From the NCBI GenBank assembly GCA_020831485.1, contig JAFIGG010000135.1:1-64000 (forward strand): a stretch of 64,000 nt of DNA, in the 5' to 3' direction. The stretch is from Opitutales bacterium. Lineage in GTDB: Bacteria; Verrucomicrobiota; Verrucomicrobiia; Opitutales; Oceanipulchritudinaceae. Positions 17,414 through 38,100 of this stretch are shown here, one piece after another; position 1 is the first letter of the stretch; the number at the start of each line of letters is the position of its first letter. The translations under genes were made by a program, and so were the position numbers. The notes under the pieces were generated by a model, which worked only from the letters and a program-made list of their open reading frames with translations, searched no databases and had not been told where the DNA came from.

Positions 17414-17435
17414 AGAGGTGATCGATGATAGCTCA

Positions 17436-18500: not shown

Positions 18501-18502
18501 AA

Positions 18503-20185
18503 TCAGGAGGGGGTTGATGTGGTTTCGGAGCGGGCTTGAGCCTCTCCGGCTTCAATCGCAGCACGGAGTTTTTCCATATTCTCGGGCCAGCTGGCAGCCG
18601 CGTTAAAAATACTACTAGTGCCAGCTACCAGATTGTTGGCTCCCGCCGCGACCATACCCGGAATATTGGTGAAGCTAACATTCCCATCCACTTGAATGGG
18701 CAGGTGGCCATAACCGCGGGCGTCCAAATAACGCCGACATTCACGGATTTTACGGATAGAGGCTGGAGTAAGCTTTTGACCTGCAAAGCCTGGATTGACC
18801 GTCATCAATAGCACGTAGTCGATGCGTTCGAGTGCATAGTCGAGGGTCTCCAGTGGTGTGGCTGGGTTGATGGCCAGACCGGCCTTTGACCCATTGGCCC
18901 GAATCGATTCGAGAGAACGGTCGAGATGGCGACTCGATTCGGCGTGGATAGATATCTGGTAAACACTGCAGTCAGCAAGTTCACGAATAAAGAAATCGTT
19001 GTCCTCAACCATCAGGTGGACGTCGACCGGAAGGTGGGTCTTCTTGCCGAGTTCTGTGACCACGGCAATACCCATCGGCATATTGGGGACAAAGCGGCCG
19101 TCCATGATATCCATGTGCAGCATATCCGCCCCGAGTGCTTCAACCCTACGCAGGGCTGATTCAAAGTTGAGCGGATCGACGCACATCATGGAGGGCGCAA
19201 TCAGCACCTTGTCTTCCTTTGGATTGACCGAAACGGGTGTTTCTTGAACTGGAGCTGACGCCTGGAACGCCTCACCCAGAAATTGCGTCCTGAGGTGTGC
19301 CAACGATTCACGAAGTTGCGCCTCCAACAGGCCATCGGAATAGTCGCGCCCGGTCTTGGGCCCACCAATCTCAAGATAGCAACCAAGCGTGTCGACCGGT
19401 ATGGTGTCGGCGTTATCGAGTATTAAACGACGAAACTCGGCCACATTGATGATGCCTTTGGCCAGATTTTCGGACTCGAATCCAAAGGTCGAATTGAATC
19501 GCTTATCCGTGTTTTTCAAGTGAATCTCATAGAGCCATGGCAACGAAGCTTTAAAGAGATCGACCGGATTAATGCACTCTGTCTCAGAGGCATTAAGGTA
19601 ACCGTGGGCGATATCCGAGCAAAAGCCAACCTTGGACGTACTGCTGGAATTGGCTGCATGATACGCCATCAACTCATCACCCATAGCCGCCATCTCGTTA
19701 GGAAGGGTCGGCGGCTCAGCGAGGCAGGACATCGGCTCAATGGTTAGCCACTGAATCCCGCGTTCATGGGCAAAGTGCATCAGTTCCTTCATGTGCCTGA
19801 TATAGCAAGCGGTGCCAGCAGCCTTCATTCCCATTTGGTCACGCATGACAGCTCCGGGGTTGGAGCCCACGGACTGGGCTCCAACCAGACTGCCGATCTC
19901 AATGAAACGCTCAAAACTACGTCTGGCGACTTCCGCCCAAGCCCGATCTTCCTGAAAAAATCCGCCCAACTCGCGGTGAGCGGTGAAGAGGCTGTCGATA
20001 GTAATACCGTAATTATCAGCCTCCCGCTTCAAATCGGTAAAGTAGCGGTCTGGCAATTGGTAGATCTCGAAGAATGAGCCCAACTGCAGAGAAGTCACAC
20101 CTTCGTCCGCCATAATGCGGAAAAGCCAAGGGAAAGTATACCGGTATTCGATCGGATCGGATTTGATGCCAAGTTTAAGTTCCAT
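18503..20185 (-). CDS. Fused TIM-barrel sugar isomerase/epimerase and ribulose/allulose-phosphate 3-epimerase
   Basis: A 560-aa two-domain protein. Residues 1-295 look like the xylose-isomerase-like TIM-barrel family (GITIDSLFTAHRE, WLTIEPMS, GFCSDIAHGY, YEIHLKNTD with metal-binding acids and His). After a Pro-rich linker (about 296-328), residues 329-545 are a ribulose-phosphate 3-epimerase-type barrel: IAPSMMCVDP, HMDIMDGRFVPN, PVDVHLMVE, MTVNPGFAGQ and QVDGNVS contain the usual Asp/His metal ligands. Either domain alone is common; the fusion may pass a product from one site to the other. It is the first gene of the rhaA operon, divergent from a DeoR gene. Substrates are inferred to be keto-sugars or their phosphates. 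Confidence 0.85.
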   Translation of the reverse strand: MELKLGIKSDPIEYRYTFPWLFRIMADEGVTSLQLGSFFEIYQLPDRYFTDLKREADNYGITIDSLFTAHRELGGFFQEDRAWAEVARRSFERFIEIGSLVGAQSVGSNPGAVMRDQMGMKAAGTACYIRHMKELMHFAHERGIQWLTIEPMSCLAEPPTLPNEMAAMGDELMAYHAANSSSTSKVGFCSDIAHGYLNASETECINPVDLFKASLPWLYEIHLKNTDKRFNSTFGFESENLAKGIINVAEFRRLILDNADTIPVDTLGCYLEIGGPKTGRDYSDGLLEAQLRESLAHLRTQFLGEAFQASAPVQETPVSVNPKEDKVLIAPSMMCVDPLNFESALRRVEALGADMLHMDIMDGRFVPNMPMGIAVVTELGKKTHLPVDVHLMVEDNDFFIRELADCSVYQISIHAESSRHLDRSLESIRANGSKAGLAINPATPLETLDYALERIDYVLLMTVNPGFAGQKLTPASIRKIRECRRYLDARGYGHLPIQVDGNVSFTNIPGMVAAGANNLVAGTSSIFNAAASWPENMEKLRAAIEAGEAQARSETTSTPS

Positions 20186-21110: not shown

Positions 21111-22268
21111 GTGAACCCTTGCCCCGAATTCGATTCTATCCGTCAGGCCTATCTCATACACGGAGACGATTTCCCGCTAATATTGACCGATGCCAATGGA
21201 AAAATCCTTGAAGGCCACATTGAATCTACCAGTTGCCATTGCGCCAATCAACAAAGGCTTCGCAGAATTCAAGCCGCCAAACAGACACGCTATTGGGGAG
21301 AAACAGTCATCAATCTCTGCTGCGACTCGGGTTATGCGATGTGGGCGGTCCCTATAATGCGAAACAATCATCTGGTCGGCAGCTTGCTTGTCCAGGGCAT
21401 CGATCTCGAAACCGACAAACCCGGATTTCATCAGAGAGTACAAAGAGCCGCTGACGACTTACTTCGACTGGCACTGAAATACAACCTTGTTTGTCAGGCT
21501 GAACTAACGCTGGCCCAGCAACGCAATAAGAGCGAAGAACAACGCTTTCTCGCCATTGAATCGAGCAAACAGACCCCGCTGAATGACGAATTGCGGAGCA
21601 TCTATCTAATGGAAGAACCTGAGTTACTCAGTGCTATAAAGGGAGGCCACGTATTGCAGGCGCGCGCGATTCTCAACCGTATTCTGACCGCAATTTACGG
21701 ACTATCCAATGGACGCATGGAGCTGCTCAAAAGTTGCCTGCTTGAACTGGTTGTCATGATGCACCGGGCCGCCGTGGAAGCGGGTGCGGTCCCTACCAAC
21801 GTACTTGGCCAGCACTACCGGTCACTGGCTGATCTTGCATTGATCGACGACGAAGAGGATCTTTCTACCTGGATTCGTAACATGCTCGATCACCTGATCG
21901 AGCACATCCGCATCGCCTCTGATTTCCCTCATTCACTTCTCTTGCACAGAGCCACCCGGCACATGCAGGCACGTTTGCACGGCCACCTCAGCCGGGAGGA
22001 AGTCGCCCGCGTGGCTGGAGTTTCACCGAGCCATTTTAGCAAGCTGATGAAAGAGAAAATGGGTAAATCATTCTCCCAATTGCTGACCCAGATGCGAGTC
22101 AGCCGGGTCAAACAGCTCCTAGCCGAAACCGATAAAACCCTCTCGGAAATTGCTCTGGAATGTGGTTTTTGCGATCAGAGCCACATGAACAAAGTCTTTC
22201 GCGCTGCGACCTCAACCCCGCCCGGCGATTTCCGGAAGAACGGACTCGACGGCGAAAAAAAGCCGTGA
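21111..22268 (+). CDS. AraC-family regulator with PocR sensory domain
   Basis: A 385-aa protein from GTG at 21111. Residues about 5-165 fit the PocR ligand-binding domain (QAYLIHGDDFPLILTDANG, ESTSCHCANQQRL, LCCDSGYAMWAVPI), known from regulators of 1,2-propanediol and cobalamin genes. The C-terminus (about 280-380) is an AraC double helix-turn-helix (LSREEVARVAGVSPSHFSKL; LSEIALECGFCDQSHMNKVF). It lies just upstream of the corrinoid methyltransferase run starting at 22398 on the same strand and so is its most likely activator. PocR-AraC regulators are frequent beside corrinoid methyltransferase genes. The signal molecule is unknown. Confidence 0.88.
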   Translation: MNPCPEFDSIRQAYLIHGDDFPLILTDANGKILEGHIESTSCHCANQQRLRRIQAAKQTRYWGETVINLCCDSGYAMWAVPIMRNNHLVGSLLVQGIDLETDKPGFHQRVQRAADDLLRLALKYNLVCQAELTLAQQRNKSEEQRFLAIESSKQTPLNDELRSIYLMEEPELLSAIKGGHVLQARAILNRILTAIYGLSNGRMELLKSCLLELVVMMHRAAVEAGAVPTNVLGQHYRSLADLALIDDEEDLSTWIRNMLDHLIEHIRIASDFPHSLLLHRATRHMQARLHGHLSREEVARVAGVSPSHFSKLMKEKMGKSFSQLLTQMRVSRVKQLLAETDKTLSEIALECGFCDQSHMNKVFRAATSTPPGDFRKNGLDGEKKP

Positions 22269-22397: not shown

Positions 22398-23999
22398 GTG
22401 ATTAAACTTTCCGAAAACCTACGCCTTCGCGAAATTTTCGGTGGTGAGCGCCCATTCGCCACTGGGGTTGAACTGGTCTCGACCCGCGGGACCATGGGTG
22501 ATCAACAGGCAATTCGTGTGCGTGCGTTCGGCGAAGCTCTGACCCACTGTGATGCGGTGGACTGGGTATCGATCACCGACAACGCGGGCGGCAACCCTCA
22601 GCTTGCCCCAGTTGCGTTGGGCACGCCCATCCTTTACGGAGGCAAGGAAGTTGTTGTCCACCTGACCTGTAAGGACTTGAACCGTCACGGACTCGAAAGC
22701 GAGCTCTGGATGCTGGCCAGCCAGGGCTTTCACAATATACTCGCCATGACTGGCGACTTTCCTGGAGCAAGCTATGCAGGGAAAGCCAAACCTGTGTTCG
22801 ACATGGATTCAGTCGGCCTGCTGGGACTCATTCAAGGCATGAATAAAGGCCTCGCGCGCAGCGGCGTCGTCGCCAAGCAATCGCCTACGATTGGAGAAAC
22901 AGATTTCTACTCCGGCACAGTGACAAACTGCTTCAAAGCAGAGGAGAACACTCTTCTCCCACAATATGCCAAGCTGGAAAAAAAGATAGCAAGCGGAGCC
23001 AATTTCATCATCAACCAGATAGGTTTCGATTCGAGAAAGGCCTCTGAACTTATCGCCTATCTGCGCTGGCGCGGTTTCACTGACCTTCCCTTGATCGGCA
23101 ATGTTTATCTGCTTTCACCCTTTGTGGCGCGCCTTTTTCACCAGCAAGGGATACCAGGGGTAGTCCTGAGCGATGCCCTTCTCGAAAGCTGTGATAAACA
23201 GGCAGGCTCCCCTGACAAGGGGCAGGCTTTTTTTCAAGAATTCGCGGCCAAGCAGATCGCCGTATACCGAGGACTAGGTTACGGCGGAGCCTATCTTGGT
23301 GGGGCACACCGCATGGCTGAGGTCGAGGCGGTCCTCAATATCGAGCGCTCCTTTTCTCCCGACGACTGGCGCGCCTTTGCAAAAGAGATCGCTTTTGCCC
23401 GGCAAAATGAATTTTACTTATTCGAAGAGATGGAGGAAACGGGGTTAAGCCTTCAGGGGGCGCTCAATCCGGACTGGCTAAAATCGGTTGAGACAAAGGA
23501 GCGCACTGCCAATGTAAATCCGCTCTACACCCTATCGAAAGCCTGTCATTCCCTCATGTTCGAGGAGGGCAAACGGCTGGCACCGCTCGGCAAAAAGCTC
23601 TGCCAGGGCGCGGCAGACAGCCGCCACGGCCCCGCCTGGTTGAGGATGCTGGAGCGGATTTCGAAATCAGCCCTCTACGATTGTCGCGACTGCGGCGACT
23701 GCTCTCTCGCAGAAACTGCCTTCCTCTGCCCGGAATCGCAGTGCGCAAAAAACCAGCGCAATGGTCCTTGCGGCGGCACTCGAAACGGACGCTGTGAGGT
23801 GTTCGATTACGAATGCATCTGGTCCCGTGTCTACGACCGCATGAAGGCCGAGGGCCGCACAAATGAGCTACTGGCTCATGCTCCGGTTGTTCAGGATCAA
23901 GGACTCCGCAACACATCCGCGTGGGCCAATTTTTGGCTCGGTCGGGATCACGCCAGCAAAAACAATTCTCATAACCCCAAATCCAAAAATGAATACTGA
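22398..23999 (+). CDS. metF: Methylenetetrahydrofolate reductase fused to MetV-type Cys-rich domain
   Basis: A 533-aa protein. Residues about 10-320 form the MetF TIM barrel (VSITDNAGGNPQ, HNILAMTGDFP, FIINQIGFD). The last 110 residues carry many Cys (YDCRDCGDCSLAETAFLC, NGPCGGTRNGRCEV), the MTHFR C-terminal domain found as the separate MetV subunit in acetogens. It converts methyl-THF to methylene-THF or the reverse; here oxidation of a methyl group taken from a substrate is the more likely direction. Start is GTG at 22398. The stop overlaps the next gene's ATG by 11 nt. First gene of the corrinoid methyltransferase run. Confidence 0.9.
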   Translation: MIKLSENLRLREIFGGERPFATGVELVSTRGTMGDQQAIRVRAFGEALTHCDAVDWVSITDNAGGNPQLAPVALGTPILYGGKEVVVHLTCKDLNRHGLESELWMLASQGFHNILAMTGDFPGASYAGKAKPVFDMDSVGLLGLIQGMNKGLARSGVVAKQSPTIGETDFYSGTVTNCFKAEENTLLPQYAKLEKKIASGANFIINQIGFDSRKASELIAYLRWRGFTDLPLIGNVYLLSPFVARLFHQQGIPGVVLSDALLESCDKQAGSPDKGQAFFQEFAAKQIAVYRGLGYGGAYLGGAHRMAEVEAVLNIERSFSPDDWRAFAKEIAFARQNEFYLFEEMEETGLSLQGALNPDWLKSVETKERTANVNPLYTLSKACHSLMFEEGKRLAPLGKKLCQGAADSRHGPAWLRMLERISKSALYDCRDCGDCSLAETAFLCPESQCAKNQRNGPCGGTRNGRCEVFDYECIWSRVYDRMKAEGRTNELLAHAPVVQDQGLRNTSAWANFWLGRDHASKNNSHNPKSKNEY

Positions 24000-24912
24000 G
24001 AACAGACAACTCCATGTCATCGGCGAACTGATGAACAACTCCTACGGGCGCGCCCGAAAGGCGTGGAAAGCACGCGATCTCGACGGCTACCAAAACCTGG
24101 CTCGCCTGCAGGCGGAAAGTGGAGCTTCATTCCTGACATTCAACATCGACGGCACCCGGACGCTGCCTGTGACCCTGGCAGAAATGCTCGAGTTCCTGCC
24201 ACGCGTCATCCCAGCCATCCAGGAAGTCACCGACTTGCCGATCAGCTTCGACAACCCTGATGTCGCCTTCCACACGGAAGCCTTGAAGTATTTCGACCGT
24301 TCGCGCTGCCGCGGCCGCCCCATACTCAACTCTCTCTCTGTCACCCGCGCCGACGTGCGAGCCATGATCGATCTGGTGGGAGAGCATGATATGGATGTAA
24401 TCGTCATGGCCTCGGAGTACCAAACTGCGGACGGGGAGCACCAAGCTGCAAAAAGAGCTGGGGACATCGTTAAGGCAGCCCGCCACTTTGCAGAGCTGCT
24501 TGATTGCTCGGGTATATCGAACGACCGCATAATTGTCGATCCGGGTCTATGCCCAATTGCCTCGGATACTTGTGGAGGAGTCAACCTCTGCCTCGATGCC
24601 ATCCGCGCGCTGCGTACCGACTATGCGCTGGAAGGTATCCACATCTCCGTCGGGCTCTCCAACTTCTCCATCGGAGCCCCTGGCGAATTCCGAATTCCAC
24701 TGGAACGTGCATTTCTCAGCCTCGCTATCGAAGCTGGACTCGACTACATACTGGCCAATCCCGAAAAAAACACCGAGCCGCTGCCAACTAATGACCCCAT
24801 GGTTACCAAACTGCGCGAGGTGCTTGCCGAGGGTCGCCCACTGGCGGACGAAGATCCTGAAGAAGCAGGCTACCGCCAACTCGACGCATTGATGGAGCTA
24901 TACGGATCATGA
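23989..24912 (+). CDS. Pterin-binding methyltransferase (corrinoid:tetrahydrofolate, MTII type)
   Basis: A 307-aa dihydropteroate-synthase-fold protein beginning at ATG 23989 (MNTENRQLHVIGELMNNS), overlapping the metF-metV stop. The ELMNNS, ASFLTFNIDGT, DNPDVAF, NSLSV, VMASE and IDPGL-like (IIVDPGLCPI) segments are those of the pterin domain of MetH/AcsE/MtvA-type enzymes. By family it moves a methyl group between a corrinoid protein and tetrahydrofolate, i.e. the second step of corrinoid O-demethylation. The neighbours (MetF before, corrinoid protein after) fit this exactly. The stop overlaps the next ATG (ATGA). Usual family length about 270-310 aa. Confidence 0.9.
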   Translation: MNTENRQLHVIGELMNNSYGRARKAWKARDLDGYQNLARLQAESGASFLTFNIDGTRTLPVTLAEMLEFLPRVIPAIQEVTDLPISFDNPDVAFHTEALKYFDRSRCRGRPILNSLSVTRADVRAMIDLVGEHDMDVIVMASEYQTADGEHQAAKRAGDIVKAARHFAELLDCSGISNDRIIVDPGLCPIASDTCGGVNLCLDAIRALRTDYALEGIHISVGLSNFSIGAPGEFRIPLERAFLSLAIEAGLDYILANPEKNTEPLPTNDPMVTKLREVLAEGRPLADEDPEEAGYRQLDALMELYGS

Positions 24913-26195
24913 AAACCAAACCCCTTGCAGAAATCGTCCCGGCCTCATTAGACACCGGTTCCGGGACGGTCTGGTTGCAGTTAGGCCAATTGCTTGATGC
25001 CGCCAAGCGCCGTTGCCATCACAACGCTCATCTCGTTTATGATTCAAATGGCATCCTACACGCTAGTGAAGCCCCTCCACCACCGGAGCTCACACGGGCG
25101 GCACAGACGCTGAACCTGCCTGATGCTCTCGCCCTTCCACTACTCTTCGACGGCCACACCCACATCAACCTCTGCGGAGGTGAGACTGACGCCCAAAGAC
25201 GCAATGCAGCACAGTTGCAGGAACCCGGCCCGCTCCTCGAGCAAGCACAGGAAAGAGCCCGCGCGATCTTCCACATGGGCGTAAGAGCACTGCGCGATGG
25301 CGGCGACAAAGACGGCGTGGGACTAGCGCTCTCATCCAAAGCAAATGCGTCCAACACCGAAGCCTTCAGGATGGCCCGCGTATTCAGCCCTGGCCCCGGC
25401 ATCCATCGCCGCGGTCGCTACGGCAGCTTCTTTTCCACACCCGTCGAGGCATTTGCTTCGGAAGCCGATTGCGTGGCCTCCCGTGCAGCCCTCGGGGCAG
25501 CGCATATCAAAATCGTTCCCACTGGAATCATAAACTTCGCCAAAGGTGCCGTAACTGCAAAACCCCAGTTCTCCAGAGACGAAATACGTGCTTTCAAAGA
25601 GGCAACTGCCGCCCACGGCCTCCACCTCATGGCGCATGCGTCGGGAGAGGACGGCATCGGGAACGCCATTCAGGGAGGGGTTGATACAATTGAGCACGGA
25701 TATTTCATCACCCGTGAGCAACTGGCAATCATGCGCGACCAAAACCAGATCTGGGTACCCACCTTCGCTCCTGTACATCGCCAGATAATCCACGCTGATG
25801 AAATGGGCTGGGACGATGCTATAGTTGGCAACCTCCGCCGCATCCTGGATGGCCACGCCAAAAGCCTTGGACAGGCAATGGACATGGGCATCGAAATCCT
25901 AATTGGCAGCGACGCAGGTTCCTACGGTGTGCCCCACGCAATCGGTCTCTTCGAAGAAATCTGGCTTATGAGTCAGGCCGGAATGCCCGCCCTGGAAGCC
26001 CTCTGCCGCGCAATCCACGACAACCCGCTCCGCCTTGCTCCGAAACTGGAACCCAACACCATCACGGCGGGCCGCGAAGCCACTTTCCTGCTGGCACCAA
26101 CCGCCGCGCTCAAAGACGCCCGCGAGCTTGCCAAAGCCACCGTTCTTGTCCGGGGAGCCCCTGTGCAGCAACCCGAAATCAGAGGCTTACTGTGA
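24909..26195 (+). CDS. Imidazolonepropionase-like amidohydrolase
   Basis: A 428-aa metal-dependent hydrolase with the amidohydrolase ligand set: HTHINL near the N-terminus, HIKIVPTG (Lys), LMAHASG (His), IEHGYFIT (His) and IGSDAGSYG (Asp). It hydrolyses an amide, lactam or similar bond; the substrate cannot be read from the sequence. Its start overlaps the MTII stop by 4 nt, so it belongs to the methyltransferase operon. It may act on the carrier or leaving group of the methylated substrate, or on a folate or cyclic side product. No signal peptide. Confidence 0.85.
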   Translation: MKTKPLAEIVPASLDTGSGTVWLQLGQLLDAAKRRCHHNAHLVYDSNGILHASEAPPPPELTRAAQTLNLPDALALPLLFDGHTHINLCGGETDAQRRNAAQLQEPGPLLEQAQERARAIFHMGVRALRDGGDKDGVGLALSSKANASNTEAFRMARVFSPGPGIHRRGRYGSFFSTPVEAFASEADCVASRAALGAAHIKIVPTGIINFAKGAVTAKPQFSRDEIRAFKEATAAHGLHLMAHASGEDGIGNAIQGGVDTIEHGYFITREQLAIMRDQNQIWVPTFAPVHRQIIHADEMGWDDAIVGNLRRILDGHAKSLGQAMDMGIEILIGSDAGSYGVPHAIGLFEEIWLMSQAGMPALEALCRAIHDNPLRLAPKLEPNTITAGREATFLLAPTAALKDARELAKATVLVRGAPVQQPEIRGLL

Positions 26196-26343
26196 AAGGC
26201 CTCCTCTCTCTCGCCTCCGGCCCAAGCAAAGAACTCCTAACATCAAGAGCCAGATACAAACATTTAAGCGCGAAATACAATAAACCCCAACGGATATCCG
26301 CTATTCTTCTCCTACCTTTTTCAAAACCAACAAGACTTATACA

Positions 26344-26979
26344 ATGAGCACACGCGAAGACCTGAAAACCGCCATCATCAACGGCAAACGCAAAGATGTT
26401 AAAACAATCATCCCCGAACTCCTTGAAGCAGGCGAAACCCCAGTCGACCTTCTTGAGAAAGCGATGATCCCGGCGATGAGCGCCGTGGGCGAAAAATTCA
26501 AAAACAACGAAGTTTTTGTGCCTGAGATGCTGGTCTCGGCACGGGCTATGAAGGAGGGCATGAAACTGATCGAGCCCGCCTTGATCGAAGCTGGAATCAA
26601 GCCCAAGCACACCGCCATCATAGGCACCGTTGAGGGCGACCTCCACGACATCGGCAAAAACCTCGTTGCCACTATGTGGAAGGGTGCTGGCTTTGAAGTA
26701 ATCGACCTTGGGGTGAATGTCCCACCAGCTCAATTCGTCGATGCGATCAAGACCCATCAGCCTGCTATTGTCGGCCTTTCAGCCCTGCTGACTACCACCA
26801 TGCCTTCCATGAAAACGACGGTCGCCGCTATCCGTGAGGCGGGCTTCGATACAGTCAAGATCCTTATTGGTGGTGCCCCCATTACTCAAAGCTATGCTGA
26901 CGAAATCGGTGCCGACGGCTATGCCCAAGACGCTGGAAGCGCCGTCGATGCCGCCAAGGCAACTCTAGGTGCGGCCTAA
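26344..26979 (+). CDS. Corrinoid (B12-binding) methyl-carrier protein
   Basis: A 211-aa MtaC/MtvC-type corrinoid protein: helical cap domain (1-85) followed by a Rossmann-like cobalamin domain with the lower-ligand motif DLHDIGKN (Asp99, His101, Gly104), then LSALLTTTM and IGGAPITQ. It accepts a methyl group on cobalt from an MTI enzyme and passes it to the MTII enzyme. It is the only corrinoid protein in the window, while four UroD-family candidates are present, so it may serve several MTI partners. A 148-bp gap separates it from the amidohydrolase; no clear promoter or riboswitch was recognised there. Confidence 0.95.
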   Translation: MSTREDLKTAIINGKRKDVKTIIPELLEAGETPVDLLEKAMIPAMSAVGEKFKNNEVFVPEMLVSARAMKEGMKLIEPALIEAGIKPKHTAIIGTVEGDLHDIGKNLVATMWKGAGFEVIDLGVNVPPAQFVDAIKTHQPAIVGLSALLTTTMPSMKTTVAAIREAGFDTVKILIGGAPITQSYADEIGADGYAQDAGSAVDAAKATLGAA

Positions 26980-27054
26980 GCTCAGATCGTTTTAAATGAC
27001 AGAGACCTGCTCGACGCCGTAATCGTGGGCGTCAAAAAAAACAAAAAAATCGAC

Positions 27055-28434
27055 ATGGCAACTATCTCAGGCAAACAGATTCTAATCAACGCACTCCGCT
27101 GCCAGCCCACCGAACGCACCCCATGGGTGCCATTCGTCGGAGTCCACGGCGGTGCTCTGATCGGCGTCAACGCGACCGAATACCTGCAAAACGCCGATCA
27201 CATCATAGCTGGGCTCAAGGCCGCCGCAGAACGCTACAGCCCCGACGGCTTACCCGTCGTTTTTGACCTCCAGATCGAGGCGGAAATCCTCGGCTGCGAC
27301 CTCGCCTGGGCTGCGGAAACACCACCCTCTGTGGCCAGCCATCCTCTGGATGAGGACTACGACCTCTCCTCGCTGGCGGAGTTCAATGTAGGGAAAGGCC
27401 GCATTCCTCTCGTCCTAGACGCCGTGCGCCGCAGCAAAGAGGCATTCGGAGAGGAAATAGCCCTGTATGGCCTCTTGACCGGGCCACTCACGCTTGCACT
27501 CCACCTGCGGGGCGACGACGTCCTCCTTGACATGTTCGACGAGGAAGAGGCCGTGCCTAAACTTTTCGACTACTGCGCCGATGTAGCCATCCAGATGGTC
27601 GACGCCTACATCGATGCGGGAATCGACGTTATCGGTGTAGTCGACCCCATGATCAGCCAGATTGGCCCAGAGCATTTTGAGGAGGCGGTAACCCCTGCCC
27701 TCAATAAAATCTTTGACCACATCCGAGCTCGCGGAGCTCTTTCGTCCCTCTTTGTTTGTGGCAACGCCACTCGCAACCTGGAAGTTATGTGTGCCACTAC
27801 CTGCGACAATATTTCCGTCGATGAAAACGTCGGCATGGTTGAGCTGGCGCGCATCGCTCGGGCCGCTGGAAAATCCTTCGGAGGGAACCTGCAGCTCACC
27901 GTTGTTCTCCTTCTCGGCGAAACAGACGACGCAGAACGCGATACTGTGCGATGCCTCGATCAGGCAGGGGCGGGGGCAGGCTTCGTTCTGGCACCCGGCT
28001 GCGACCTGCCCTACGCCGTTAAACCGGAAAACATCGAAGCTGTGGCTGCTCTGGTACGCGATCCTTACAAGTTAGAGGTCGCCCGTAACCTACCGGACAA
28101 GGATAAAAACGACAACTTTGATGACATCCACATCCCCGATTACTCAAAAGAACCCGCCGTTATCGTAGATGTGGTCACCCTCGACTCGGCTGGTTGCGCA
28201 CCCTGCGCCTACATGGTCAAAGCCGCGCAGGAAGCTGGCAAAGCCTTTGGCCAGCCTTGCGAAATCCGTGAGCACAAAATCACTGGTCGCGACGGCCTCG
28301 GCTACATGACGAAGCTTGGCTGCACAGCTATCCCAAGCATATGTATCGACGGCAAGGAGCAATTCGCCTCTATAATACCTGCCCGCCAGGATATTGTCGA
28401 CTTGCTGCAGAAGGCAACGTTGGCGAAGGTCTGA
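27055..28434 (+). CDS. UroD-family methyltransferase-like protein 2 fused to thioredoxin-like domain
   Basis: A 459-aa protein (ATG 27055; GTG 27025 possible). Residues 1-345 have the MtaA-like UroD fold. At the zinc site the strand is LFVCGN: Cys235 is kept but the usual His is Phe233; the second Cys (APGCDLP, Cys316) is kept. Residues about 365-459 form a thioredoxin/glutaredoxin-like domain with CAPC (381-384) and a cis-Pro-type loop TAIPSICIDG. The fusion may use its dithiol in methyl transfer, in redox control of the corrinoid, or as methyl acceptor; this is inference. It lies between the corrinoid protein and the CobW-like gene. Confidence 0.82.
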   Translation: MATISGKQILINALRCQPTERTPWVPFVGVHGGALIGVNATEYLQNADHIIAGLKAAAERYSPDGLPVVFDLQIEAEILGCDLAWAAETPPSVASHPLDEDYDLSSLAEFNVGKGRIPLVLDAVRRSKEAFGEEIALYGLLTGPLTLALHLRGDDVLLDMFDEEEAVPKLFDYCADVAIQMVDAYIDAGIDVIGVVDPMISQIGPEHFEEAVTPALNKIFDHIRARGALSSLFVCGNATRNLEVMCATTCDNISVDENVGMVELARIARAAGKSFGGNLQLTVVLLLGETDDAERDTVRCLDQAGAGAGFVLAPGCDLPYAVKPENIEAVAALVRDPYKLEVARNLPDKDKNDNFDDIHIPDYSKEPAVIVDVVTLDSAGCAPCAYMVKAAQEAGKAFGQPCEIREHKITGRDGLGYMTKLGCTAIPSICIDGKEQFASIIPARQDIVDLLQKATLAKV

Positions 28435-28508
28435 GCGATGCCTCCCGACTCACAACTCTTGATCACCGGTCTGCAGCAGCTGAGGACAGCTGCCAACAGA
28501 AGATAGGT

Positions 28509-29405
28509 ATGCCTTCAAAAAAGATCCCCGTCATTCTTGTCACCGGCTTCCTTGGCAGCGGCAAGACCACCCTCCTGCGCCGTCTCGCCGAAATGCACCG
28601 GGACTGGCGGATGGTCTTTCTGGTCAATGAATTCGCCAAAACAGATATCGACGGCGAGAAGCTGGCCGCCACCGGATCCAAGACACTGAGTGTGGTTGGC
28701 GGCAGCCTCTTTTGCGAATGCAAGGCAGGAGATTTCCTTAAGATCATGCAGGAAGAGGTGCTGGGTTGTCACCGCACAAGCCCTCTCGATGCAGTTTTGA
28801 TCGAAACCAGCGGTACCGCCAACCCCGAGGCCATTGGCCAATTGATGGCCAACCACGGGCTGGCCTCCAATTTCGAACTGCGCTCAATCGTCACAGTCGT
28901 CGCACCAGCGAAACTGCCAAAACTAATGGGTAATCTGCCCGTCGTGGAAGCCCAACTTCGTTCAAGCGACTTGATCGTGATCAACAAGACTGACACCGTT
29001 GCTGCCGCTACTCTGGATTGTATCGAGACTACGATCCGACAGCGAAACGCCGAAGCCAATATTGTCCGGGCTGAATTCTGCAAGTTTGACTTTTTTCTCC
29101 CGGAGAAGCGTCCAGTCGCGCCCAGCAACGATCTTTCGACCTGCGAGGCAAACCCCTTCACGACGGCGGAAGTAGAATGGCCAAAGGATCGCCCCCTCAA
29201 CGAAGCACGTGCGTGGCTTGCCTCATTACCCGAAACCATTCTCAGGATCAAAGGCCGTATCCGAACCCCGGAAGGCGACTGGCACGTCGAACGCACCGTC
29301 GATTCCCTCAACATTGAGCCGGCGCCACCCGGCCCTACCCGCCTGGTCCTTATCGCCCACGACGACGACGAAAAAGATTTATTCAGTATCTTGCGTCCAT
29401 CTTGA
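28509..29405 (+). CDS. CobW/G3E-family GTPase (metal/cobalamin-associated chaperone)
   Basis: A 298-aa G3E GTPase from ATG 28509: Walker A GFLGSGKTTL, a metal-binding LFCECK in the position of the family CxCC, ETSG (G3) and NKTD (G4). G3E proteins load metals or cofactors into enzymes (HypB, UreG, MeaB, CobW). In this operon a role in zinc supply to UroD-type enzymes or in corrinoid handling is plausible. It starts 75 nt after the UroD-thioredoxin gene and 17 nt before the DUF1638 gene. Which metal is unknown. Confidence 0.88.
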   Translation: MPSKKIPVILVTGFLGSGKTTLLRRLAEMHRDWRMVFLVNEFAKTDIDGEKLAATGSKTLSVVGGSLFCECKAGDFLKIMQEEVLGCHRTSPLDAVLIETSGTANPEAIGQLMANHGLASNFELRSIVTVVAPAKLPKLMGNLPVVEAQLRSSDLIVINKTDTVAAATLDCIETTIRQRNAEANIVRAEFCKFDFFLPEKRPVAPSNDLSTCEANPFTTAEVEWPKDRPLNEARAWLASLPETILRIKGRIRTPEGDWHVERTVDSLNIEPAPPGPTRLVLIAHDDDEKDLFSILRPS

Positions 29406-29421
29406 TTCATCCTTCCCTCAA

Positions 29422-30147
29422 ATGCCCTCATCCTACGCGATTCTGGCCTGCGACGTCTTCCGGGAAGAGCTTGAAGAGCTTTGCAGACGTACGCCCACCT
29501 GCAAAGCCCTTCGTTTCCTTGAAATGGGTTTGCACGATCAGCCCAAACTGCTGCGCGAGCGCATTCAGGAAGCCCTGTCTCAAATCGAGGCCGACCCAAG
29601 CGTCGAGGCCATCGCCCTTGCTTACGGGCGCTGCGGCAACGGCCTCATCGGCGTCACCGCTGGACGCTGCCCACTCATTCTCCCGCAAGCTCACGATTGC
29701 ATCTCCATCCTCCTGGGTGGTACCGAGCGCCATGCTGCAATTCTGAAGGAAAATCCCGGCACATACTTCTACTCTCCCGGCTGGGTCCGCGAGAAACGCG
29801 TACCAGGCCCCGACCGCGAGGAGTGGCTGCGCAATCTTTACGCCGATCGCTATCCGGATGACAATGAGATGATTGACGATCTTGTCGAAGCGGACGCCGA
29901 AACCTTTGCCCACCACAACTGTGCCGCCTACGTTGCCGTCACCGATAACCCGACCGCCCGCGACTACTGTCGGAACTGTGCCCGTCACCTCGGCTGGAAC
30001 CACCGGGAGCTTGACGGCGACCCCGGATTTCTCAACGCGCTCGTCCATGCGCAGTGGGACGATTCCCGTTTCCTTCACATCTCTCCGGGGCACCGCATCG
30101 CAGCCAACGGGGAGGGCCGTCTCTATGCCCAAGGCCACCGCCCATGA
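29422..30147 (+). CDS. DUF1638 protein associated with corrinoid methyltransferases
   Basis: A 241-aa protein with a DUF1638 signature: ILACDVFREELEEL, AYGRCGNG, LPQAHDCISILLGG and YFYSPGW. Several Cys are conserved in the family (CDVF, RCGNG, HDC, CRNC). Its biochemical role is not known, but the family is habitually found beside corrinoid proteins and RACo-type activases, as here. The stop overlaps the ATG of the RACo-like gene (ATGA), showing tight coupling. No membrane or signal segments. Confidence 0.85.
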   Translation: MPSSYAILACDVFREELEELCRRTPTCKALRFLEMGLHDQPKLLRERIQEALSQIEADPSVEAIALAYGRCGNGLIGVTAGRCPLILPQAHDCISILLGGTERHAAILKENPGTYFYSPGWVREKRVPGPDREEWLRNLYADRYPDDNEMIDDLVEADAETFAHHNCAAYVAVTDNPTARDYCRNCARHLGWNHRELDGDPGFLNALVHAQWDDSRFLHISPGHRIAANGEGRLYAQGHRP

Positions 30148-31685
30148 TTCGCATTGAAAAACCCGACGGTGGCAGCATCGAACGCCCGCGCCCGCAAGAC
30201 CCCTCGCAGCTCCTGACGAACTGGCTGGAACAACAGCAGATCCCACTCAACACCCGTTGTGGCGGACGCGGCTTCTGCCAGGGCTGTCTGGTCGAGATCG
30301 AGGGCATTACCCTGCGTGCCTGCCAGACGGATTGCCAATCAATTTCTTCGATCCGCATACCCACCTCCTCTCTGCGCGACCACAGCCTTAGCGGAGTCAG
30401 CATTTTTGAAATCGACGGCCCGGCTCCACAATCCCTTCCGCGTCCGGGACTTGGTCTCGCCCTCGACATCGGAACCACTACAGTGGCCGCTGCTCTTTGG
30501 GACCTGAAGAATGGGGTATGCCTTGCTCATGGAGCCCTCGCAAACGAACAGCGTCGCTATGGAGACAACGTCCTCAGCCGTATCGATCACGCCGTGAGCA
30601 TGGGCGGGGGCAGCGCAAAACTTCAGTCCGCCCTCATCGATGAAACCATCCAACCCCTCATCGACCGGCTCTGCCGCCAAGCCAGTCGCTGCTCTGAGGA
30701 GATTGCCGAAGCCGTCGCAGCAGGCAATACCGTCATGCTCCACAGCCTCGCTGGCTCCAGTCTGTCTGGTTTTGCAGCCTATCCTTTTAAGCCTGAATTT
30801 CTGACAGCCCGGACACTTTCTGCCCGCAGTCTGGGACTGGACGCGGATTTCTCTATTCTCTGCGGACACAACCTTGGCCCTTTTGTTGGTGCCGATATTG
30901 CCCTCGGGGCCTACGCCTGCGGGATGACATCCAAAAGTGAAACCGCCCTTCTGATCGACTTCGGTACGAACGGGGAGATTCTCCTAAAACATCCCGGCGG
31001 GACCCTGGCCACCGCAACCGCAGCCGGACCTGCTTTCGAGGGTGGGCGCCTTCGATACGGTGCTCCCGCCCACGACGGGGTTGTCTCCGCACTTCAACGC
31101 CAACCCCAAAGCTGGCAGATCAGTATCTGCGGAGGCGGCAAGGCCTCAGCCAAAACCCGTGCCCTCTCTGGTGCCGCCTACATCGACTTCCTTGCACTGG
31201 CTTTGCGCGACGGTATTCTTTCCCCTATGGGCCGGATGAATCCGCAACACCCAGAGGTCAAACCAGTCGGCACAGCAGACCAAAATGGCTACGGAGTCGC
31301 CGTCACCAGCAGGATCTCCGTCACTGAAACCGATGTGGCCGAGTTAATACAGGCTAAGGCCGCCATAGCCGCCGGAGTCACGACCCTGCTTGAAGTCGCA
31401 GGCTTAAGTGTAAACGCCATCCAAACCCTCTACATTGCCGGCGGCTTTGGCTACCATCTCAACATCGCTCACGCTATCGCCATTGGAATGCTACCCAATC
31501 TTTCCGCCGAGCGCATCAAAATTATCGGTAACGCCTCCCTCGGAGGCGCCTCCCGCCTTCTGCAAACGCAAGACGACACTGACCTTCAAGACCTCGCCGC
31601 GCATACCAGGGTCATCGAACTCAACCAGATCAACTCCTTCGAAGATCACTTCATCGACGCCATGCCACTCCAACCCACGAATTAA
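30144..31685 (+). CDS. RACo/RamA-like corrinoid reductive activase (2Fe-2S ASKHA ATPase)
   Basis: A 513-aa protein from ATG 30144. The N-terminus is a plant-type 2Fe-2S ferredoxin domain with Cys39, Cys45, Cys48 and Cys60 (TRCGGRGFCQGC). The rest is an ASKHA ATPase: LALDIGTTTV, LIDFGTNGEI and YIAGGFGYHLN. Such proteins reduce cob(II)alamin to cob(I)alamin in corrinoid proteins using ATP, which is needed to rescue the carrier after accidental oxidation. This is important in an aerobic host. It overlaps DUF1638 by 4 nt and precedes UroD protein 3 by 22 nt. It is shorter than typical RACo (about 630 aa), mainly in the linker. Confidence 0.93.
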   Translation: MIRIEKPDGGSIERPRPQDPSQLLTNWLEQQQIPLNTRCGGRGFCQGCLVEIEGITLRACQTDCQSISSIRIPTSSLRDHSLSGVSIFEIDGPAPQSLPRPGLGLALDIGTTTVAAALWDLKNGVCLAHGALANEQRRYGDNVLSRIDHAVSMGGGSAKLQSALIDETIQPLIDRLCRQASRCSEEIAEAVAAGNTVMLHSLAGSSLSGFAAYPFKPEFLTARTLSARSLGLDADFSILCGHNLGPFVGADIALGAYACGMTSKSETALLIDFGTNGEILLKHPGGTLATATAAGPAFEGGRLRYGAPAHDGVVSALQRQPQSWQISICGGGKASAKTRALSGAAYIDFLALALRDGILSPMGRMNPQHPEVKPVGTADQNGYGVAVTSRISVTETDVAELIQAKAAIAAGVTTLLEVAGLSVNAIQTLYIAGGFGYHLNIAHAIAIGMLPNLSAERIKIIGNASLGGASRLLQTQDDTDLQDLAAHTRVIELNQINSFEDHFIDAMPLQPTN

Positions 31686-31707
31686 TCCACCCTTTAACTT
31701 TTTAAAA

Positions 31708-32766
31708 ATGAAGCCAAAAGAACGCATCCTCCACACCCTCAACCGTATACCCACCGACCGACCGCCAGTAGATGTCTGGCTGACTCCGGAAGTCCTCCAA
31801 GACTTGCGTCGCCACACCGGCATTGAGGACGAACTGACACTCTACCAGAAACTTGGCGTCGATAAGATCGTCTGGATCTTCCCCGGCTATCAGACCGCCA
31901 GCTACGACCCCAACCACAGCCAGGGTCGCGATCCCTGGGGCGTGCCAACAGTGCAGGTGCAGTCTGGGGCCGCGACCTATCAGGAATATGGTGATCCGCC
32001 TCTCGGTGAAATGGATGAAGTCGAGGAAATGCAATCCTACCCACTCTGGCCCGATGCAGACAGCTTCAATTACAAGGCAGCCCGCGAGGCCGCCGAGCGT
32101 GCCCGCCGCTTTGACTTTGCTACTATCGGGCCATGGGTCTCTCACTTCGAGATATACTGCCATCTTCGGGGCATGGAAAACGCCCTTATGGATACCGTAG
32201 CGGAGGAGGAATTCCTCACGGCTACCCTGGACCGCATCGAATCTATCCAGACCGCGATGATGGAGCGCTACTTTTCCGAACTGGGTGACCTTGTCGACAT
32301 GCTCTTCATTTCCGATGATCTCGGAACCCAGGAGAGCCAGCTCATTTCCGTCCCGACCTTTCAAAAGCACCTCAAACCGCGCCTGCGCCGATGGTGCGAC
32401 CTCGCACACCGCCACGGCAAAAAAGTACTCTTTCACACCGACGGCTCTTCCCGCGCCTTCCTGCCCGACTTGTTTGATGCAGGGGTCGATGTCCTCAACC
32501 CAATCCAGCACGTCTGCCCAGGCATGGAACGCGCTCAACTCAAAGCGGATTTTGGTGACGCCTTCATCTTCCACGGCGGCATAGAAAACCAATCAATTCT
32601 CCCCCGTGGAACGCCCGAACAAGTCCGCAGGGAAGTTCACTCTTGTCTGGACACCCTCGGCGCAGGCGGCGGCTACATTCCCAGCTCCTGTCACAATATT
32701 CAGGCTGGCACTCCAGTCGAAAACGTTCTTGCCATGATCGAAGCCGTACACAACTACGACTCCTGA
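31708..32766 (+). CDS. UroD-family methyltransferase-like protein 3 (O-demethylase MTI type)
   Basis: A 352-aa UroD-fold protein starting MKPKERILHTLNRIPTDRPP. The zinc-site strand reads LFHTDGS (His243-Thr-Asp245), the His-x-Asp type also seen in UroD protein 1, rather than the His-x-Cys of MtaA. This pattern occurs in UroD-family proteins annotated with O-demethylase roles. A second candidate ligand region is PSSCHNIQ near residue 330. It is the last gene of the plus-strand corrinoid run and the best MTI candidate for the corrinoid protein at 26344. Downstream lies a convergent AraC gene. Confidence 0.85.
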   Translation: MKPKERILHTLNRIPTDRPPVDVWLTPEVLQDLRRHTGIEDELTLYQKLGVDKIVWIFPGYQTASYDPNHSQGRDPWGVPTVQVQSGAATYQEYGDPPLGEMDEVEEMQSYPLWPDADSFNYKAAREAAERARRFDFATIGPWVSHFEIYCHLRGMENALMDTVAEEEFLTATLDRIESIQTAMMERYFSELGDLVDMLFISDDLGTQESQLISVPTFQKHLKPRLRRWCDLAHRHGKKVLFHTDGSSRAFLPDLFDAGVDVLNPIQHVCPGMERAQLKADFGDAFIFHGGIENQSILPRGTPEQVRREVHSCLDTLGAGGGYIPSSCHNIQAGTPVENVLAMIEAVHNYDS

Positions 32767-32796: not shown

Positions 32797-33651
32797 TTAC
32801 CCTCGCAATACCTTGCTCCGATACTCACGGGGAGTGCAGCTATAGGCTTCACGGAAACGACGGTTAAAATTTGAGAGGTTATTAAAACCACACGCAAAGG
32901 CGATCTCCGTTACCGTTGCAGAAGTCTCAACCAGAAGACGGCAAGCCTGCCCCAAACGCACCTCATTAAGAAAAGCTGAAAAGGTTTTTCTAGTGTTAGC
33001 ACGAAACAAGCGACTGAAATAGGCCGGAGCCAGACCGACCGACCGAGCCATGTCTACGTGCGTGATCGCTTCGGCGTAGTGCCTCCGAATGAAACTGCAC
33101 GCCCTGCCAATGGACTCTGGCACTTCTGCAGGTGCGCTCGTACTATACAATTCGCTGGCCAGTTCATGAACTTCGCAATCGCTCAACAAAATATCTATCA
33201 GCTCAATAAAGGCACGCCAGCGGTGCAACATTGTCCGCTCCCGGATTGCCGCAAGGCATGCACCCGCCCGGGCGGAGACAGCCAAGCTAAAAGACAATCC
33301 CCGCTCCGCACGCGCAAGAAGCTGCCGGAAACCTTCAAACTCGGGCATCTGCGCCAAGCTCACTAAATTGCCCTCAAGCGTGAATTGCAACACCTCGGCA
33401 CGGGCACGCCCGCTACCCGCTTTTCCATTTCGGTAAACATGGGGCAGATTGGCTCCAATCAAACACAGATCCCCCGGTTGAAAAGGCGCAACGTGATCCC
33501 CGATCATGCGCTCGCCCTCGCTTTCCAAAATATAGGTAAGCTCTATTTCGGGGTGAAAATGGAGCGGGTGGTCAAAGCTTGGTAAATCAATTAAACGAGT
33601 GACAAAACTAGAGCTTATCACTGGCTCAATTAGCTCAAGGGAAGGGCGCAT
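32797..33651 (-). CDS. AraC-family regulator with cupin sensor
   Basis: A 284-aa protein: N-terminal cupin-like sugar-sensing domain (HFHPEIELTYILESEG) and C-terminal AraC double helix-turn-helix (ITHVDMARSVGLAPAYFSRLF; VTEIAFACGFNNLSNFNRRF). It is divergent from the UroD 4-ferredoxin-P450-SSS-sulfatase genes, with 105 bp between the starts, and likely controls them. AraC proteins of this layout usually activate sugar-uptake or catabolism genes. Confidence 0.93.
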   Translation of the reverse strand: MRPSLELIEPVISSSFVTRLIDLPSFDHPLHFHPEIELTYILESEGERMIGDHVAPFQPGDLCLIGANLPHVYRNGKAGSGRARAEVLQFTLEGNLVSLAQMPEFEGFRQLLARAERGLSFSLAVSARAGACLAAIRERTMLHRWRAFIELIDILLSDCEVHELASELYSTSAPAEVPESIGRACSFIRRHYAEAITHVDMARSVGLAPAYFSRLFRANTRKTFSAFLNEVRLGQACRLLVETSATVTEIAFACGFNNLSNFNRRFREAYSCTPREYRSKVLRG

Positions 33652-33756: not shown

Positions 33757-34773
33757 ATGACCCCTAAAGAACGCTACCTCAACACCCTGCAGGGAAAGCC
33801 CTGCGATTGCCTACCCCGCGTGCCCATACTCATGCAGTTTGCTGCCGAATACATTGGCTCGAACTACGGTGCCTTTGCTGCCGACTACCGGATTCTGGCG
33901 GAAGCCAACTACCGCTGCGCCAAAGACTTCGATTTTGACCAGCTCAGCGCCATTTCCGATCCCTACCGGGAAACCGCCGGATTCGGCGGCATTACCACTT
34001 TTGTTGAGGACGGTGTGCCGCGCTGCTCTGGGCCATTGGAAGGCGATGACGACATAGACGTATCAAAGCTTCCCCGGCCGGATCCTCTCCAATGCGATCG
34101 CATGCGAGATCGCATTGAGGGGGTTCGGGAGATGCATCGACTCGCAGGCGAAACCCACTCGATCATGGGTTGGGTAGAGGGGCCTGCTGCAGAGGCAGCC
34201 GATCTGCGGGGACTCTCCAACTTTTTCATGGACCTGCTTGATGACAAGGAGGGCGTCGATGCGTTAATGGAGCGGACTACCGACAACGCAATTCACTTCG
34301 CACACGCCCAAATCGAGGCAGGAGCTGACACTGTCGGCATCGGCGAGGCCATGGCCAGCCAGGTCTCTGCCGAAACCTATGCTGAATTAATTCTACCTTA
34401 CACGGACCGCCTGGTCCGTGCCATTCGCGAACGGGGGGCCTTCGTCAAACTCCACGTATGCGGCAATATAACGCACCTGCTCCCGCACTTCCGAACCATG
34501 CCTATCAACATCCTTGACCTCGACCATCTTGTTGATACCTCGACCGCCCGCCAACTGATTGGACCCGGGATCACCCTTTGCACCAATCTGGACCCGTCGG
34601 GTCTCGTTTGCCATGGCAATCCAGAGACAATTCGAGCTGCAGTCTTGAAAGCCGTCAGCCGCCTGGGCAACCCTTGCATGATTAACGCAGGCTGTGAGAT
34701 TCCATCCGGCACCCCGGAGGAAAACCTCCGTGCGCTCTGCACCCCTGTTCCCTGGAAACCGAATCCAGCTTAG
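33757..34773 (+). CDS. UroD-family methyltransferase-like protein 4 (MtaA type)
   Basis: A 338-aa UroD-fold protein with the full MtaA-like zinc set: KLHVCGN (His233, Cys235) and INAGCEIP (Cys313). It begins MTPKERYLNTLQGKPCD. MtaA-type enzymes transfer methyl groups between a corrinoid protein and a thiol. It is the first gene after the divergent AraC promoter and lies 57 nt before the ferredoxin-P450 pair, an unusual neighbourhood for a corrinoid methyltransferase. Whether it works with the corrinoid protein 7 kb away or has another role is unknown. Confidence 0.85.
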   Translation: MTPKERYLNTLQGKPCDCLPRVPILMQFAAEYIGSNYGAFAADYRILAEANYRCAKDFDFDQLSAISDPYRETAGFGGITTFVEDGVPRCSGPLEGDDDIDVSKLPRPDPLQCDRMRDRIEGVREMHRLAGETHSIMGWVEGPAAEAADLRGLSNFFMDLLDDKEGVDALMERTTDNAIHFAHAQIEAGADTVGIGEAMASQVSAETYAELILPYTDRLVRAIRERGAFVKLHVCGNITHLLPHFRTMPINILDLDHLVDTSTARQLIGPGITLCTNLDPSGLVCHGNPETIRAAVLKAVSRLGNPCMINAGCEIPSGTPEENLRALCTPVPWKPNPA

Positions 34774-34830: not shown

Positions 34831-35145
34831 ATGCCAAAGGTTACCCTTATAACTCCAAGCAAAGAAAAAGTCATTCTCGAAGACGCGATAGGCACGCTCA
34901 TGGAAGCGGCTCTTGATGCTGATGTAGAAGGCATTGACGGTGATTGCGGGGGCGTCTGCTCCTGCTCCACTTGCCACGTTCACGTCGCACCAGAATGGGT
35001 CGAGCGGGTTGGCCCCCCGAACGATGCCGAGGCGGACACCCTAGAGTTCGATGAACGCACCAATTCGCGCAGCCGTCTGAGCTGCCAAATAGAACTTAAA
35101 GACGAACTGGATGGTATGGTCGTCGAAATTCCCAATTCCCAGTAA
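34831..35145 (+). CDS. 2Fe-2S ferredoxin (putidaredoxin/adrenodoxin type)
   Basis: A 104-aa ferredoxin with Cys39, Cys45, Cys48 and Cys85 in the C-x5-C-x2-C-x36-C spacing of P450-type ferredoxins; an extra Cys43 lies inside the cluster loop. It carries electrons from a flavin reductase to a class I P450. The P450 gene starts 10 nt after its stop, so they are partners. No stand-alone ferredoxin reductase gene is in the window; the NqrF-like part of the protein at 57008-59290 is one possible source, but that part may serve only its own fused domains. Confidence 0.95.
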   Translation: MPKVTLITPSKEKVILEDAIGTLMEAALDADVEGIDGDCGGVCSCSTCHVHVAPEWVERVGPPNDAEADTLEFDERTNSRSRLSCQIELKDELDGMVVEIPNSQ

Positions 35146-38084: not shown

Positions 38085-38100
38085 ACCCCAGGAAATACAG

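Follow-up and report, generated by a model that had tools for sequence, protein, structure and literature searches.

The window analysed here is a stretch of 64,000 nucleotides from an Opitutales bacterium of the phylum Verrucomicrobiota (GenBank assembly GCA_020831485.1, contig JAFIGG010000135.1, positions 1 to 64,000 of the forward strand). At 22398-32766 its plus strand carries a run of genes that, judged by protein family, encodes a complete corrinoid methyl-transfer set of the type built from methyltransferase I (MTI), corrinoid protein (CP), methyltransferase II (MTII) and activating enzyme (AE). The run lies among genes for glycan degradation, and its methyl donor may be a methylated sugar. 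It is composed as follows.

22398-23999, plus strand: MetF-MetV, a methylenetetrahydrofolate reductase fused to a C-terminal MetV-like domain (PF02219 and PF12225, DUF5981)
23989-24912, plus strand: MTII, predicted methylcorrinoid:tetrahydrofolate methyltransferase (PF00809, Pterin_bind)
24909-26195, plus strand: amidohydrolase (PF01979, Amidohydro_1)
26344-26979, plus strand: CP, the predicted methyl carrier (PF02607 and PF02310, with DLHDIGKN)
27055-28434, plus strand: UroD-Trx, a methyltransferase of MtaA/CmuA type with a C-terminal thioredoxin-like domain (CxPC; URO-D family, PF01208)
28509-29405, plus strand: CobW-family GTPase (PF02492 and CobW_C)
29422-30147, plus strand: DUF1638 protein, probable B12-reactivation accessory (PF07796)
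30144-31685, plus strand: predicted reductive activase of the CP, RACo type (PF14574 and PF17651, the middle and C-terminal domains)
31708-32766, plus strand: UroD2, candidate methyl-sugar:corrinoid methyltransferase, i.e. MTI (PF01208)

Every one of these parts had been named in a preliminary description of the stretch, and all were recovered by Pfam searches of the window proteins. Since the MTI, CP, MTII and activating-enzyme families are all present, the set is complete in that sense. Of the 4-nt overlaps reported earlier between several genes, two are real (MTII/amidohydrolase and DUF1638/RACo); the MetF-MetV and MTII frames overlap by 11 nt and the remaining gaps measure 16-148 nt. The free-standing CP carries a B12 site of the DxHxxG type (B12-binding_2 and B12-binding domains, DLHDIGKN) and shares 31% identity with the CmuA corrinoid domain. 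The N-terminus of the activase, judged by eye, holds the cysteines of a 2Fe-2S cluster (CxxxxxCxxC...C). In Phaeobacter, DUF1638 mutants resemble B12-reactivation mutants, and B12-dependent methionine synthesis there requires both this protein and a RamA-like one (PMC5764234). It is on the strength of these fitness data that we regard the DUF1638 protein as a probable reactivation accessory. The amidohydrolase is linked to MetF-MetV and MTII at two loci of the host genome, the window and contig C121, where a second set of MetF-MetV, MTII, amidohydrolase and RACo genes, preceded by a UroD gene (L026, 9558-16790), lies near a sodium:solute symporter (SSS), a heparinase II/III-like protein and a GxGYxYP putative glycoside hydrolase. 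Each of the three corrinoid loci in the host genome adjoins carbohydrate genes. BLAST similarity was absent between the window amidohydrolase and the one beside cmuA on pCMU01, and between the window MTII and CmuB, so both identities were rejected.

Among solved structures, MTII is best matched by PDB entries 4o0q, 4o1e and 4o1f, which represent the MTII from the O-demethylase of Desulfitobacterium hafniense, and proteins of MetH and AcsE type rank after them. Together with the identical four-part logic, this kinship would suit an acetogen-like O-demethylase for methoxyaromatics that came to lie in a glycan region by chance. We consider such an origin highly improbable, as neither the window proteins that were scanned nor the families counted around UroD2 include aromatic genes. 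Nor did we find homologous clusters to sit always with aromatic or methylamine genes, an outcome envisaged earlier; such genes are absent from the commonest neighbour families of both UroD2 and UroD-Trx. The motif E-X14-E-X20-H, the zinc motif of VdmB and OdmB, has no match in any of the four UroD proteins of the window, which makes the earlier label of an acetogen O-demethylase too narrow. As evidence against a methoxyaromatic substrate this absence has its limits, though, because the family does not rely on zinc throughout, and some O-demethylases do without it (PMC13222342).

The host genome is a 3.86-Mb draft that is 97% complete. The closest named relatives of the cluster belong to Opitutales/Puniceicoccaceae (Verrucomicrobiota) and include Pelagicoccus mobilis and strain DG1235, both of which carry the UroD-Trx/CobW core (L028, L032). 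Four COX1 proteins score above the cut-off, and the host therefore very probably respires oxygen, as had been supposed. With MetF-MetV in the cluster and formyltetrahydrofolate synthetase (FTHFS) encoded elsewhere in the genome, the suggested oxidation of the methyl carbon through folate is feasible. A corrinoid route in an oxygen-using bacterium had itself been thought new. This does not hold, since corrinoid methyl transfer in aerobes is already known from chloromethane users (cmu cluster, pCMU01 and pJM105) and from the demethylation of glycine betaine by MtgBCD (PMC12478193). What would be new is a sugar ether as corrinoid methyl donor: in the open-licence literature we found no report of corrinoid demethylation of methylated sugars or of UroD expansions in the Planctomycetes-Verrucomicrobia-Chlamydiae (PVC) group.

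UroD2 is our sugar-linked candidate for the MTI. Homologues at E <= 1e-70 occur in 25 of the 388 genomes of the phylum, host included. A free-standing CP (E <= 1e-30) accompanies UroD2 in 23 of 24 genomes (host excluded), compared with 4 of 22 genomes without UroD2. Restricted to UroD2 genomes of the same order or family as the host, the comparison is 7/7 versus 4/22 (hypergeometric probability ~2e-4, by our own arithmetic), the 22 UroD2-negative genomes being those to hand and not a random draw. The two genes also stand side by side in varying arrangements: CP-UroDTrx-UroD2 on another contig of the host (C126), CP-UroD2-UroD4-UroDTrx (L031), CP-UroDx-UroD2 (L135) and UroD3-UroD2-PocR-CP in a sister genome (G005). 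As a side observation, four genomes (G262, G312, G428 and G456) hold 38-57 first-look UroD candidates each, far above the needs of haem synthesis.

When aligned to MtaA, UroD2 shows HxD...C in place of the zinc-site HxC...C, and its H243, D245 and C328 (numbered from the Met at 31708) are kept in nearly all of 22 homologues. The loss of HxC...C and the distance of UroD2 from all solved methyltransferases would fit an enzyme of the UroD fold that modifies sugars and is no methyltransferase, with the adjoining corrinoid genes acting on another substrate. This seems very doubtful to us. UroD2 co-occurs almost perfectly with the free-standing CP, it adjoins CP, UroD-Trx or MtaA-type UroD genes in several lineages, and its predicted model (predicted local distance difference test, pLDDT, 83) has MtaA (4ay7) as its closest fold, followed by UroD decarboxylases.

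The neighbours of UroD2 in unrelated genomes point to sugars. Gene orders include RhaA-UroD2-GH78-UroDTrx in a metagenome-assembled genome labelled Chlamydiae (L098), SSS-UroD3-GH78-UroD2 (L145) and sulfatase-GH78-UroD2, in which GH78 is clear (L134). Elsewhere UroD2 stands alongside GH3, a sulfatase, GH38 and a sugar transporter (L142), GH95 and a GLAA-type protein (L143), or CBM4/9 (L140). Within 5 kb of UroD2 (12 loci, 61 proteins) the GH78 domain was found three times and GH106 once, both alpha-L-rhamnosidase families; from the GH78 counts per genome we calculate a chance expectation of ~0.24 GH78 in these stretches. A glycosidase of the families tested, a sulfatase or RhaA lies within 6 kb at 8 of 22 UroD2 loci and at 10 of 72 UroD-Trx loci that lack UroD2 (Fisher p 0.03). 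RhaA, GH78 and GH106 make rhamnose the favoured sugar, and the presence of GH95 and GH38 beside UroD2 suggests that its family serves several sugars.

UroD-Trx behaves differently. It scores 163 bits against TIGR01463, below the cut-off, and shares 23% identity with the UroD half of CmuA. Its predicted model (pLDDT 93) is closest in fold to MtaA 4ay7 among solved structures. In the alignment with MtaA, the first zinc ligand (the His of HxC) is replaced by Phe and both cysteines are kept. The CxPC of the thioredoxin-like tail, a feature overlooked in the preliminary description, is unchanged across 32 homologues. Relatives of UroD-Trx are encoded in at least 564 stretches of the GTDB genomes scanned. 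Among the best 80 loci, CobW is present at 64, CP at 33, AraC/PocR regulators at 25 and RACo at 17. Within 4 kb of UroD-Trx (58 loci, 109 proteins) there are two sulfatases, and no glycosidase is among the 25 commonest families. With so few sugar genes beside it and CobW as its partner, UroD-Trx was rejected as a sugar-specific enzyme; UroD-Trx and CobW form a widespread core without linkage to sugars. Because most UroD-Trx/CobW clusters lack sugar genes, we assign the sugar link to UroD2 and not to the whole cluster. The sugar context proposed earlier thus stands for UroD2, with its GH78, RhaA and sulfatase neighbours, and does not extend to the cluster in general.

Three further observations concern the core. 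Bacteroidota-type loci (L099-L106) hold CP-UroDTrx-CobW clusters. The MetH-type activation domain Met_synt_B12 occurs in 4 of the 109 proteins near UroD-Trx and may replace RACo and DUF1638 at L099-L106. The UroD-Trx homologue adjoining UroD2 in G245 (L134, 8669-9274) appears to be a relic: it has 202 aa, no thioredoxin part, and F for a conserved C (LAPGF).

The slot between CP and UroD-Trx is variable. In the sister genome G005 it holds MtaB, a methanol:corrinoid methyltransferase (535 bits); in other genomes it holds UroD4, UroD2 with UroD4, or nothing. The simplest reading is a constant core with an exchangeable MTI. Taken with the kinship to MtaA, this would place UroD-Trx on the acceptor side or make it a general partner, and UroD-Trx, which together with CobW is the CP's constant partner, is probably an MtaA-like acceptor-side or general methyltransferase.

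The MtaB in this slot, further CP-MtaB pairs in G001, G002, G029 and G212, and CmuA and CmuC as the named aerobic relatives all fit a general one-carbon system, in which small donors such as methanol, methyl thiol or halomethane would be taken from glycan breakdown and UroD2 would be merely accessory. We judge this unlikely. MtaB (PF12176) is unmatched in the host genome, and methanol was rejected as the substrate there on this ground; the window has neither a CmuA-like fusion nor a CmuB-like MTII, and UroD2 adjoins sugar genes even at loci that lack the core. Another possibility is a split methionine synthase or methyl supply like MtgCDE, passing methyl groups from folate to a thiol, with no catabolic demethylase. 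UroD-Trx is of the thiol-methylating MtaA kind and has a thioredoxin domain, a RamA-like activase and DUF1638 serve the split methionine synthase of Phaeobacter (PMC5764234), and MtgCD of Ruegeria is bidirectional (PMC12478193). This option seems distinctly improbable, as the host has a MetH-sized corrinoid protein on contig C52 (30% identity inside a 1263-aa frame) and three corrinoid loci that adjoin both carbohydrate genes and specific regulators do not suggest a housekeeping function.

The corrinoid run does not end at 32766, as the preliminary description had it; UroD3, ferredoxin and P450 genes follow in line:

32797-33651, minus strand: AraC regulator of the P450 unit (PF12833)
33757-34773, plus strand: UroD3, MtaA-type methyltransferase (PF01208)
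34831-35145, plus strand: 2Fe-2S ferredoxin, likely redox partner of the P450 (PF00111)
35156-36313, plus strand: cytochrome P450 of carbohydrate O-demethylase type (full-length alignment with PDB 6g5o)
36324-38084, plus strand: SSS, candidate for sugar uptake (PF00474)
38044-39618, plus strand: sulfatase (PF00884)

The P450 aligns with 6g5o over its full length (residues 5-382, E 4.1e-114, 384 bits), and the next solved P450 chain follows some 70 orders of magnitude behind (E 2.5e-44). We take 6g5o to be the 6-O-methyl-galactose demethylase of Zobellia. P450s of marine bacteria demethylate 6-O-methyl-galactose with the help of a ferredoxin (PMC10033563). A P450 of the sugar-demethylase type next door is the strongest clue to the substrate. 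In UroD3, aligned to 4ay7, the MtaA-type zinc motif HxC...GC is intact.

The ferredoxin-P450 pair recurs at L221, L225 and L227, and homologues of the AraC regulator at 32797-33651 lie divergently beside ferredoxin and P450 (L221, L227) or beside P450 (L226). The P450 was rejected as a constant part of the corrinoid cluster, as elsewhere it has its own AraC regulator and ferredoxin. The units at L221 and L227, in other Verrucomicrobiota, contain no UroD3, so UroD3 in the window has been placed inside a P450 unit. In G005 the P450 lies on another contig, beside homologues of the window genes 46405 and 41595. The corrinoid cluster of G005 adjoins rhaA and the same dehydrogenase and epimerase genes, with an SSS homologue there too. 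The same genome has a close homologue (1335 bits) of the diiron-Rieske fusion at 57008-59290; it is the first gene of an operon fusion-X-UroD3-UroD2 in which gene ends overlap. In G245, 18 nt separate a homologue of this fusion from UroD2. Three genomes thus join oxygenases to corrinoid methyltransferases: P450 with UroD3 in the window, the fusion with UroD2 in G005 and G245. Corrinoid and oxygen-dependent demethylation appear to be joined in one methyl-sugar locus.

The remaining features of the surroundings are these:

15034-20185, minus strand: rhamnose-type catabolism block of rhaA, two Zn-dehydrogenases and an AP_endonuc_2/ribulose-phosphate epimerase fusion (PF06134, PF08240, PF01261 and PF00834)
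21111-22268, plus strand: AraC regulator with PocR domain, immediately upstream of the cluster (PF10114 weak, below cut-off, and PF12833)
57008-59290, minus strand: fusion of a diiron (FA_desaturase), a Rieske and an NqrF-like reductase part, candidate second sugar oxygenase (PF00487, PF00355, PF00175)
59474-62158, plus strand: alpha-L-rhamnosidase family protein, GH78 type (PF17389 at 46 bits, PF17390)

The flanking genes noted earlier were all found: rhaA at 15034 on the minus strand, GH94 at 12622, the sulfatase at 38044, SSS at 36324 and 55223, and GH78 at 59474, which is the only PF17389 match of the host genome. A fourth UroD gene of the window, also overlooked before, lies at 11495-12583 directly upstream of the GH94 phosphorylase and has no HxC motif. 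At 18503-20185 a TIM barrel of sugar isomerase type is fused to a ribulose-phosphate 3-epimerase; G005 apparently has two separate genes (L033). Four large proteins (39629-41548, 41595-44672, 46405-47877 and 50691-52484) match no Pfam family except for one H-lectin domain. Homologues of 41595-44672 and 46405-47877 stand beside P450 and ferredoxin in G005 (L225), so these may be unrecognised glycan enzymes of methyl-sugar loci. At one end of the window, at 1373-9680 on the minus strand, lies a defence-like island with a type III DNA methyltransferase (697 bits), AbiD (231 bits) and a DrmD-like SNF2 helicase (718 bits). No cobalamin or folate riboswitch reached the Rfam gathering score in the window and three related loci. 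Two Acido-Lenti-1 RNA matches, barely above threshold, lie downstream of the G005 cluster (L022, 14378-14422 and 14675-14719).

We favour a corrinoid system that would remove O-methyl groups from sugars of algal type, most likely from an O-methylated 6-deoxyhexose such as O-methyl-L-rhamnose, in a locus for sulfated, rhamnose-containing glycans, and give this reading a probability of about one half. From the parts and their families, the conserved neighbours and the co-occurrence, we infer its catalytic steps and substrate and how the work is shared between the UroD proteins. GH78, GH3, GH88 and sulfatase would cleave and desulfate the oligosaccharide, and SSS would import the products. UroD2, as MTI, would bind the methylated sugar and use it to methylate Co(I) of the CP, giving the sugar and methyl-Co(III)-CP. 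MTII would pass the methyl group on to tetrahydrofolate, and MetF-MetV would oxidise methyltetrahydrofolate, the carbon leaving by folate steps that could involve the FTHFS of the genome. Corrinoid that has slipped to Co(II) would be reduced again by RACo with DUF1638, which would be important in a cell that respires oxygen. The freed sugar would enter RhaA and the dehydrogenase/epimerase block. The P450 with its ferredoxin, and perhaps the diiron fusion, may carry out the same demethylation with oxygen, the P450 route yielding formaldehyde. The co-location of UroD3 with a P450 and ferredoxin of sugar-O-demethylase type points to such a second, oxygen-dependent route for the same type of ether beside the corrinoid route.

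Several findings weigh against this interpretation. The sugar enrichment around UroD2 is modest and partly confounded by taxonomy, and Verrucomicrobiota are rich in sugar genes anyway; within the window GH78 lies ~27 kb and rhaA ~15 kb from UroD2. No close relative of UroD2 has been solved or characterised, and the protein is in sequence about equidistant from decarboxylases and methyltransferases. The sole named methyltransferase relative found for it is CmuC (30% over 141 residues), whose own role is, to our knowledge, not settled. The UroD-Trx/CobW core is mostly found without sugar genes, and the P450 usually occurs without the corrinoid cluster. Two routes for one reaction at one locus are also unusual and could mean different substrates.

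More tentative is a wider proposal, possible in our view but less than probable, of a hybrid locus in which UroD2, as corrinoid MTI, and oxygen-dependent demethylases (P450 with ferredoxin in the window, a diiron-Rieske fusion in sister genomes) share operons and would remove the same ethers with or without oxygen, the methyl carbon being recovered through folate. UroD2 would then be the first corrinoid methyltransferase to act on an aliphatic sugar ether, and members of its family would mark the use of methyl sugars across the PVC group. Many sugars of algae and bacteria are capped by methyl ethers, which block their breakdown. The only bacterial solution we found described is a P450 that requires oxygen and sets the methyl group free as formaldehyde (PMC10033563). 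A corrinoid route, if true, would be independent of oxygen and could save methyl carbon and electrons. It would also provide a substrate for some of the numerous UroD-like proteins still unassigned in the PVC group and tie glycan turnover to one-carbon metabolism. In a recent tree of the UroD superfamily, some MTI clades are still without a known substrate (PMC13222342).

Among known systems, the O-demethylases of acetogens and methanogens (OdmB, VdmB, MtvB, MtoB) share with the window an MTI of the UroD superfamily, a CP, a folate-dependent MTII and an ATP-dependent activase. The window differs in its aerobic host, its glycan locus and the lack of both aromatic genes and E-X14-E-X20-H, and it adds UroD-Trx, CobW, DUF1638 and a P450 neighbour. 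The type 1 mlp clusters of Kountz and Balskus likewise hold a single CP and a single RACo/Ram protein together with several MtaA-like members of the UroD family. They have no folate MTII and their hosts are obligate anaerobes (PMC10418091), whereas the window has MTII and MetF-MetV and a host that respires oxygen. The methanol system MtaBCA is represented by MtaB next to the CP in G005 and has no MtaB match in the host genome. In MtgBCD(E), the glycine betaine demethylase/methionine synthase of marine Alphaproteobacteria, aerobic corrinoid demethylation goes together with a RamA-like activase, DUF1638 and an extra MetF, as in the window. Its MTI, however, is of the MttB family (PF06253), which has no match among the cluster proteins, and the candidate MTI of the window is of the UroD family. 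The aerobic chloromethane system (cmuA, cmuB, cmuC, hutI, metF, paaE, purU, folD) also clusters UroD-type methyltransferases, a corrinoid domain, metF and an amidohydrolase in an aerobe, and UroD2 is distantly CmuC-like and UroD-Trx CmuA-like. In CmuA, UroD is fused to the corrinoid domain, whereas UroD-Trx and CP are separate genes; the MTII is not CmuB-like, the amidohydrolase is dissimilar to that of pCMU01, RACo and DUF1638 are present, and there is no dehalogenation context. The P450 6-O-methyl-D-galactose demethylase of Zobellia and Formosa, presumably that of 6g5o, resembles the window P450 in its full-length homology, adjacent ferredoxin and glycan context. Unlike it, the P450 operon of the window holds the corrinoid-type UroD3 and adjoins a corrinoid cluster.

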